A stretch of 33,316 nt of DNA from contig CAMBRH010000002.1 in assembly GCA_945870115.1 (NCBI GenBank), positions 1 through 33,316 of the forward strand. The letters are read 5' to 3'. This stretch comes from Chitinophaga pinensis (GTDB lineage: Bacteria > Bacteroidota > Bacteroidia > Flavobacteriales_D > Crocinitomicaceae). Shown here piece by piece: positions 16,433 through 17,509 of the stretch. Position 1 is the stretch's first letter, and every line of letters begins with the position of its first letter. The translations under genes and the position numbers were made by a program. Under the pieces are notes generated by a model that saw only the letters and a program-made list of their open reading frames with translations, made no database searches and was not told the DNA's origin.

Positions 16433-16574
16433 CTGATCTCACGAAGTATCAATAACATAATTGTGATAAATACAATTATCTTAATCTAAAAATTAAAAAA
16501 TACTATTTTATTTACGAATATCACAAGAACAATAAATAACGCTTGTTATATTCACAATAATTAATCTAAAAATA

Positions 16575-16780
16575 AATTACTTTTTGCAGTATTGTAAAAA
16601 AAATACTTTGAATAGCAAGGTAGATTGATAAATTAATTGATTCTTTGTATATCGACCTTTCAGGCCTTTTGTTATTAGTTTCTTTTATACGATGGGCTTT
16701 ACCCATCGTTTCAGTACTTTACCCTTTCAGGGCAAAAATATTTAATCTAAGTTCAAATTAATTACTTTTTGCAGTATTGT
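16575..16780. repeat. 21-bp direct repeat AATTACTTTTTGCAGTATTGT flanking element R1
   Basis: Identical copies at 16575-16595 and 16760-16780, each preceded by TTAATCTAA. Confidence 0.85.
16654..16733. repeat. REP-like tripartite element R1
   Basis: GACCTTTCAGGCC ... CGATGGG-CTTTA-CCCATCG ... ACCCTTTCAGGGC, 80 bp. Confidence 0.85.
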
Positions 16781-16809
16781 CGAGCAAATCACTTTTCATA
16801 GATAAAAAA

Positions 16810-16889
16810 GACCTGAAAGGTTGCAATATACTAATATAGGGTGAAGCCCTATATAATAACAACATAATACATATAAACCCTGAAAGGGT
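16810..16889. repeat. REP-like tripartite element R2 (opposite loop orientation)
   Basis: GACCTGAAAGGT ... ATATAGGG-TGAAG-CCCTATAT ... ACCCTGAAAGGGT, 80 bp. Confidence 0.85.
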
Positions 16890-16918
16890 GCAATATCTAT
16901 ATCTGAATTATTCTAAAA

Positions 16919-17371
16919 TTAAGTCCAAACATATTTTTCATCATATTCAACTTCGTATTTTTTTAAAAATGCTACATATTCTTCTTTAAAAGTTTTTTTT
17001 CTATGATGTTCTTTTTGATTCTCAATATACTTTATGACAATATCTACTTCAGAAGGATTTACTGAAAAAGCACCATAACCATCTTGCCAATAAAAGTTTG
17101 CATAATTATCCCCTTTTGTTTTTATCCATTTTGAAGAATGAGATTTTAATTCTTCCATTAATTTCATTAATGTTATTTTTTTTGAAAGCATACAAAGAAT
17201 ATGAACGTGGTTAGTAAAACCGCCTACTTTTATAACTTGACAGTCAAGCTTATTGCAAATACCACCCAAATAACTATGTAACTCATCCTCAATTTCTTGA
17301 TGAATTGAATGTTCTCGGTGCTTTGTACTAAACACGATGTGTAGGTAATTTTTAACTAGTGACTGTCCCAT
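16919..17371 (-). mobile_element. IS200/RAYT-like HUH (Y1) transposase
   Basis: 150 aa; VKNYLHIVFSTKHRE, HUH motif NHVHIL, WQDGYGAFSVN, VIKYIENQKEHHRKKTFKEEY typical of REP-associated tyrosine transposases. Confidence 0.92.
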
Positions 17372-17385
17372 GTTTTTGGTATTTC

Positions 17386-17467
17386 GACCTTTCAGGCCTT
17401 TTGTTTATATGTTTCTTCAATCACGATGGACTACATCCATCGTTTCTGTACTTTACCCTTTCAGGGC
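17386..17467. repeat. REP-like tripartite element R3
   Basis: GACCTTTCAGGCC ... ACGATGGA-CTACA-TCCATCGT ... ACCCTTTCAGGGC, 82 bp, just upstream of the transposase start. Confidence 0.85.
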
Positions 17468-17509
17468 AAAAATATTTACTCATCTAGGATTGACGCAAAC
17501 CTTAAAAAA

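Follow-up and report, generated by a model that had tools for sequence, protein, structure and literature searches.

The window analysed here, namely the whole stretch of 33,316 nucleotides, contains a short transposase gene accompanied by three hairpin elements of about 80 bp, R1, R2 and R3. This raises the question of what these elements are and whether the transposase acts on them. The preliminary description regarded the gene as encoding a RAYT-like transposase bracketed by REP-like elements, so we examined the protein, the elements, and their counterparts in related genomes.

The gene, tnpA, is located at 16919-17371 on the minus strand and encodes a protein of 150 residues. This protein matches Pfam PF01797 (3e-27) and the NCBIfam IS200/IS605 model (7.8e-20), and the closest solved structure is that of ISHp608 TnpA (2A6M, 1.4e-7). 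In an alignment of 37 proteins, comprising the window protein and 36 relatives, the catalytic residues H55, H57 and Y115 are invariant, and so are Q119, H122 and H123. The YIENQKEHH stretch of the window TnpA corresponds to the Y---Q--HH signature of subclass 1.2 (Y115-Q119-H122-H123) and a WQ motif is also present. The HuH motif is NHVH in the window TnpA and mostly DHIH or NHVH in the relatives, the subclass motif being DH[IV]H. Based on the Pfam and NCBIfam matches and on the motif alignment, the window transposase is an HUH Y1 enzyme of subclass 1.2, as far as sequence can assign it. A true RAYT (TnpA-REP, class 2) is ruled out, as the protein exhibits YIENQ instead of the class 2 Y..NP motif and the consensus of the elements is devoid of a GTAG/GTGG foot. 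The RAYT-like identity of the protein must therefore be abandoned.

Subclass 1.2 TnpA Y1 proteins are low-copy proteins of Cyanobacteria and Bacteroidetes that do not behave as insertion sequences (Quentin et al. 2018, PMC6006769). The window TnpA resembles them in its Y---Q--HH signature, its WQ motif, its length of about 150 residues, its low copy number and its occurrence in Bacteroidetes: the host genome has one tnpA copy and two paralogs (40% and 33% identity), and the tnpA relatives are almost all from Bacteroidota. This subclass has been reported without REPs (Table 1 of PMC6006769) and generally without IS200-like secondary structure, whereas the genes examined here are accompanied by conserved double-hairpin modules, which also occur dispersed.

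Each of the three elements of the window holds one copy of a conserved module made of a hairpin A and a hairpin B. R3 (17386-17468, minus strand) is the 5' (LE-type) element, with A1 at 17456-17466, a hairpin B of the CGATGGA type at 17424-17442, and A2 at 17388-17396, immediately ahead of the tnpA start codon. R2 (16809-16889, plus strand) is the 3' (RE-type) element and is inverted with respect to tnpA, with A1 at 16812-16820, a hairpin B of the ATATAGGG type at 16834-16854, and A2 at 16878-16888, about 30 bp past the stop codon. R1 (16654-16734, minus strand) is an extra LE-type element downstream of R2, with A1 at 16722-16732, a hairpin B of the CGATGGG type at 16690-16708, and A2 at 16656-16664. 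R1 and R3 have in common the repeats D1 (59 nt, 90%) and D3 (33 nt, 91%). The covariance model built from the units found in relatives and in the window matches R3 at 17404-17468 minus (57.0 bits, E 1.6e-13) and R2 at 16809-16873 plus (63.5 bits, E 1.8e-15), both of which were among its training units, and R1, which was outside the training set, at 16670-16734 minus (55.9 bits, E 3.3e-13). R1 is also flanked by a direct repeat (copy 1 at 16556-16604, copy 2 at 16737-16789; repeats D2, 35 nt, 86%, and D4, 27 nt, 78%), which possibly originated from the insertion of R1 or from unequal exchange.

When folded as single-stranded DNA, R1, R2 and R3 show z values of -3.2 to -5.0 relative to dinucleotide shuffles, with no more than 1 of 200 shuffles equally good. 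A search of the entire 3.27-Mb host assembly for the exact tripartite pattern returns three occurrences, namely R1-R3, and the reversed control gives none. Chance hairpins are ruled out by the shuffles, by this count with its control, and by the covariation described below. The three elements are thus real and close to where they had been placed, their mini-hairpin cores and central hairpins having been located, and R2 is indeed on the strand opposite to R1 and R3. They do accompany the gene, but not as a simple bracket: R1 and R2 are both on its 3' side and R3 alone is on its 5' side.

In the related tnpA loci that were fetched (n = 80), hairpin A is present in the flanks of nearly all, often in arrays with a spacing of 24 or about 67-78 bp. 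The module comprises, in this order, hairpin A (of the GCCCT-GAA-AGGGC type), a spacer of about 8 nt, ATA, a further 3-4 nt, TAAC and hairpin B. Aligning the copies on A gives the consensus A-GCCC[TC]-GAA-[AG]GGGC-G-nn-ATA-nnn-TAAC, after which hairpin B comes; the border is sharp on the 5' side. The compensatory stem changes, initially claimed from three copies, hold in an alignment of 75 units from relatives, and the structure is therefore conserved beyond the window. In this alignment, 97.5% of the cells are paired versus 83.4% after shuffling, a figure that is biased upward, since a loose pattern served to choose A and a recognisable B to choose the 75 rows. The covariation is 0.483 versus 0.213, with 0 of 500 shuffles as high. 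Changes on both sides of the stem are observed in 10 of 13 pairs, including 7 of the 8 pairs of hairpin B, and these double changes are firmer evidence for a selected structure than the fraction of paired cells. G.T pairs outnumber A.C mismatches 92:8 (48:8 without the loop-closing pair) and the B loops are GNA in 47 of the 75 units, which indicates that selection acts on the strand with the GNA loops. Covariation by itself does not distinguish a DNA hairpin under selection from an RNA that is transcribed from this strand and likewise under selection.

Four loci (L035, L037, L043, L049) exhibit arrays of hairpin A only, in 24-bp steps and without B, adjoining tnpA. In at least eight related loci (L013, L014, L016, L018, L022, L024, L029, L051), including one in a Methyloglobulus genome, tnpA and its modules are located within a type I restriction system, with hsdS on one side and hsdR on the other, where they may be hitch-hikers or have some role.

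The type of hairpin B is tied to the strand relative to tnpA. Modules on the gene strand exhibit a B of the GATGG type (75 versus 10), whereas those on the opposite strand exhibit the YAGGG type (57 versus 2), with a p value of 5e-27, which is nominal, since units that come from the same locus are not independent. When each locus contributes a single unit per strand, the counts are 34 to 8 versus 0 to 28. The window follows the same rule, R3 and R1 being of the GATGG type on the tnpA strand and R2 of the YAGGG type on the other. The conserved plan is therefore LE-tnpA-RE with inverted and unequal ends, and R1 is an additional LE-type copy.

The modules are also dispersed in genomes that contain a close tnpA. 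In a set of 297 Bacteroidota genomes, 18 of the 24 with a close tnpA contain the strict A pattern, as do 25 of the 273 others (p=1.6e-12). With the covariance model, modules are detected in 24/24 gene-bearing genomes versus 1/20 others (p=1.4e-11), with up to 139 matches per genome (139 in G162, 98 in G112 and 37 in G185), so dispersed copies in relatives are found with both the pattern and the model. Many dispersed units of G112 show the A-B-A arrangement known from the window, with a spacing of 66-72 bp, and those of G185 form inverted pairs, A-B...B'-A', in which each B type is present once. For two non-autonomous copies of G185, the orthologous sites are empty in congeners. Deletion in all congeners is possible, but it is a less simple explanation than insertion in G185. 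As the flanks are only about 90% identical, the exact element ends and target sites are not resolvable from these empty sites. One genome (G261) has 13 exact and 15 model matches and no close tnpA detected, which gene loss or assembly gaps could explain.

In the host genome itself, exact-pattern searches, which return R1-R3 and little else, suggested a private three-copy structure. This was overturned by the covariance model, which reveals 24 dispersed copies of a divergent module (0 in the reversed control), 23 of which are outside ORFs of at least 100 aa, so that almost all are intergenic. Most of these units are about 108 bp long and comprise a hairpin A (TGATRCC-GTA-GGTATCA), ATA, TAAC, a hairpin B (GACGGAT-GAA-GTCCGTC) and a third long hairpin, and their stems vary with compensation. 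A subordinate possibility, which concerns this family more than the reading as a whole and which we consider somewhat doubtful, is that the family belongs to another subclass 1.2 transposase, unassembled or lost, and that the window TnpA serves R1-R3 only. The A stem and the tail of the family are unlike those of R1-R3, other subclass 1.2 paralogs have their own hairpin families, and the host assembly is 86% complete. Nevertheless, its hairpin B differs from that of R3 mainly by one compensated pair, and the hairpins that flank C312 and C58, the only further Y1 genes detected, are unrelated. In five of the host copies (L226, L228, L222, L240, L245), hairpin A is broken by a common segment, AGAAAAAGCAAAGCTTTTGAAGAACCAACG..., and a Flavo-1 RNA (RF01705, 55 bits; L217:1293-1373, minus) is located about 130 bp from one dispersed copy.

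Whether the family was already catalogued, a point left undecided in the preliminary description, can be answered in part. Modules adjoining tnpA in relatives match Rfam RF01687 (Acido-Lenti-1) with up to 54.7 bits, for a gathering cut-off of 37 bits, and reverse-complementing the RF01687 consensus, CCUAGCgCUgACGcGCUAGGCUAauuUAUgcCGUgCCUUCGGcACU, gives A-G-nn-ATA-nnn-TA-B. The 46-nt layout of RF01687 corresponds to the module, but Rfam models it as an sRNA that reads the other strand, and R1-R3 are below the gathering cut-off, an Rfam search of the window alone giving no match. RF01687 was described from Acidobacteria and Lentisphaerae and listed as a probable RNA, with no function given (Weinberg et al. 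2010, PMC2864571). Later genome literature merely annotates it, with a possible regulatory ncRNA suggested for Tannerella (PMC13298647), and no link to a transposase appears in the literature found on the family. Among open-licence papers, searches for CCCTGAAAGGG returned only NF-kB probes and unrelated matches, and those on REPs in Bacteroidetes returned nothing about the R1-R3 module.

The Rfam label raises the possibility that the modules are non-coding or cis-acting RNAs, such as terminators, attenuators or an sRNA, which adjoin the gene by chance. Rfam types RF01687 as an sRNA, the modules of relatives match it, A2 is located about 17-25 bp ahead of the tnpA start codon at many loci, and hairpins next to genes can terminate or attenuate transcription. 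However, according to the wobble pairs, the structure is selected on the strand complementary to RF01687, the copies are dispersed, occur as inverted pairs and in arrays and are found together with one transposase, and two inserted copies correspond to empty sites in congeners, which makes this explanation very improbable. Another explanation would be an insertion sequence of the ordinary IS200/IS605 kind, whose hairpins would be subterminal and whose deletion derivatives (MITEs) would be the dispersed copies, but this is likewise improbable. It would fit with a protein closest to TnpA of IS200, with a hairpin B that differs between the left and right ends, and with short copies devoid of tnpA inserted elsewhere. 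Several near-identical full-length copies with end hairpins on one strand would characterise such an element, but the host has only one close tnpA copy and the end hairpins are inverted. Moreover, many genomes have tens of modules but few close tnpA copies, and the gene is flanked by tandem module arrays.

With a probability of about 0.8, we consider that a subclass 1.2 Y1 (HUH) transposase serves a mobile DNA family of the REP/REPIN-like kind, and that R1-R3 are ends or master copies of this family. This reading is based on the modules flanking the gene, their covariation and strand, the asymmetry of the B types, the co-occurrence with tnpA, the dispersal, the empty sites, and the invariant catalytic residues. 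The elements are short, palindromic, mostly intergenic, dispersed and tied to a resident HUH gene. The REP-like part of the initial proposal is thus supported by the dispersed copies and the conserved structure, but the partner protein is not a RAYT. As in REP/REPIN systems with RAYTs, a low-copy HUH gene lies between inverted palindromes and short intergenic copies are dispersed, often as inverted pairs. In contrast to these systems, the module has two hairpins, GNA triloops, and ATA and TAAC instead of a GTAG foot, the left and right B hairpins differ, and the transposase is of another class. The locus shares with IS200/IS605 elements (IS608, ISDra2) the HUH Y1 fold, the catalytic residues and, probably, end recognition through hairpins, but its ends are inverted, its gene is low-copy, and no mobile full-length copies are seen. 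We regard it as a new REP-like variant, linked to a transposase subclass that was not known to carry any.

A mechanism can be proposed for this REP/REPIN-like family. The basic module, hairpin A with its GNA triloop, ATA, TAAC and hairpin B, folds on one defined strand. On the left of tnpA is a module on the tnpA strand, with a B of the CGATGG type, and on the right is one on the other strand, with a B of the YAGGG type. When this strand becomes single, for example as lagging-strand template, TnpA would bind the A-B hairpins in the single-stranded DNA and cleave beside them with Tyr115, by analogy with the biochemistry of IS608 and TnpA-REP. R1-R3 would be recognised and cleaved in this way. 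Short segments bounded by inverted modules would then be excised or copied to new intergenic sites, while tnpA itself would remain low-copy. The present results assign substrate-like elements to a transposase subclass reported to lack them, and they make many natural TnpA-hairpin pairs available as material for the study of HUH enzyme/hairpin co-evolution.

We also favour, with less assurance, the view that what RF01687 describes is DNA instead of RNA, namely the substrate of subclass 1.2 Y1 transposases with the wrong strand having been read, and, more generally, that each subclass 1.2 clade has its own triloop-hairpin family, which diversifies with its transposase and forms part of a second, two-hairpin REP superfamily in Bacteroidota and beyond. 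This would provide a testable DNA-based account for an orphan Rfam 'sRNA' that is still annotated as a possible regulatory ncRNA. In the 700-bp flanks of 19 loci encoding subclass 1.2 relatives with about 40% identity, 47 triloop hairpins are found versus 2.9 expected; their stem sequences differ between loci, and 7 of the 19 have none. Several distant paralogs (L002, which is G000:C312 of the host genome, L120, L183, L188, L193, L198) are flanked by triloop families of their own, such as CGACTCC-AGC-GGAGTCG and CGACCCC-GTA-GGGGTCG.
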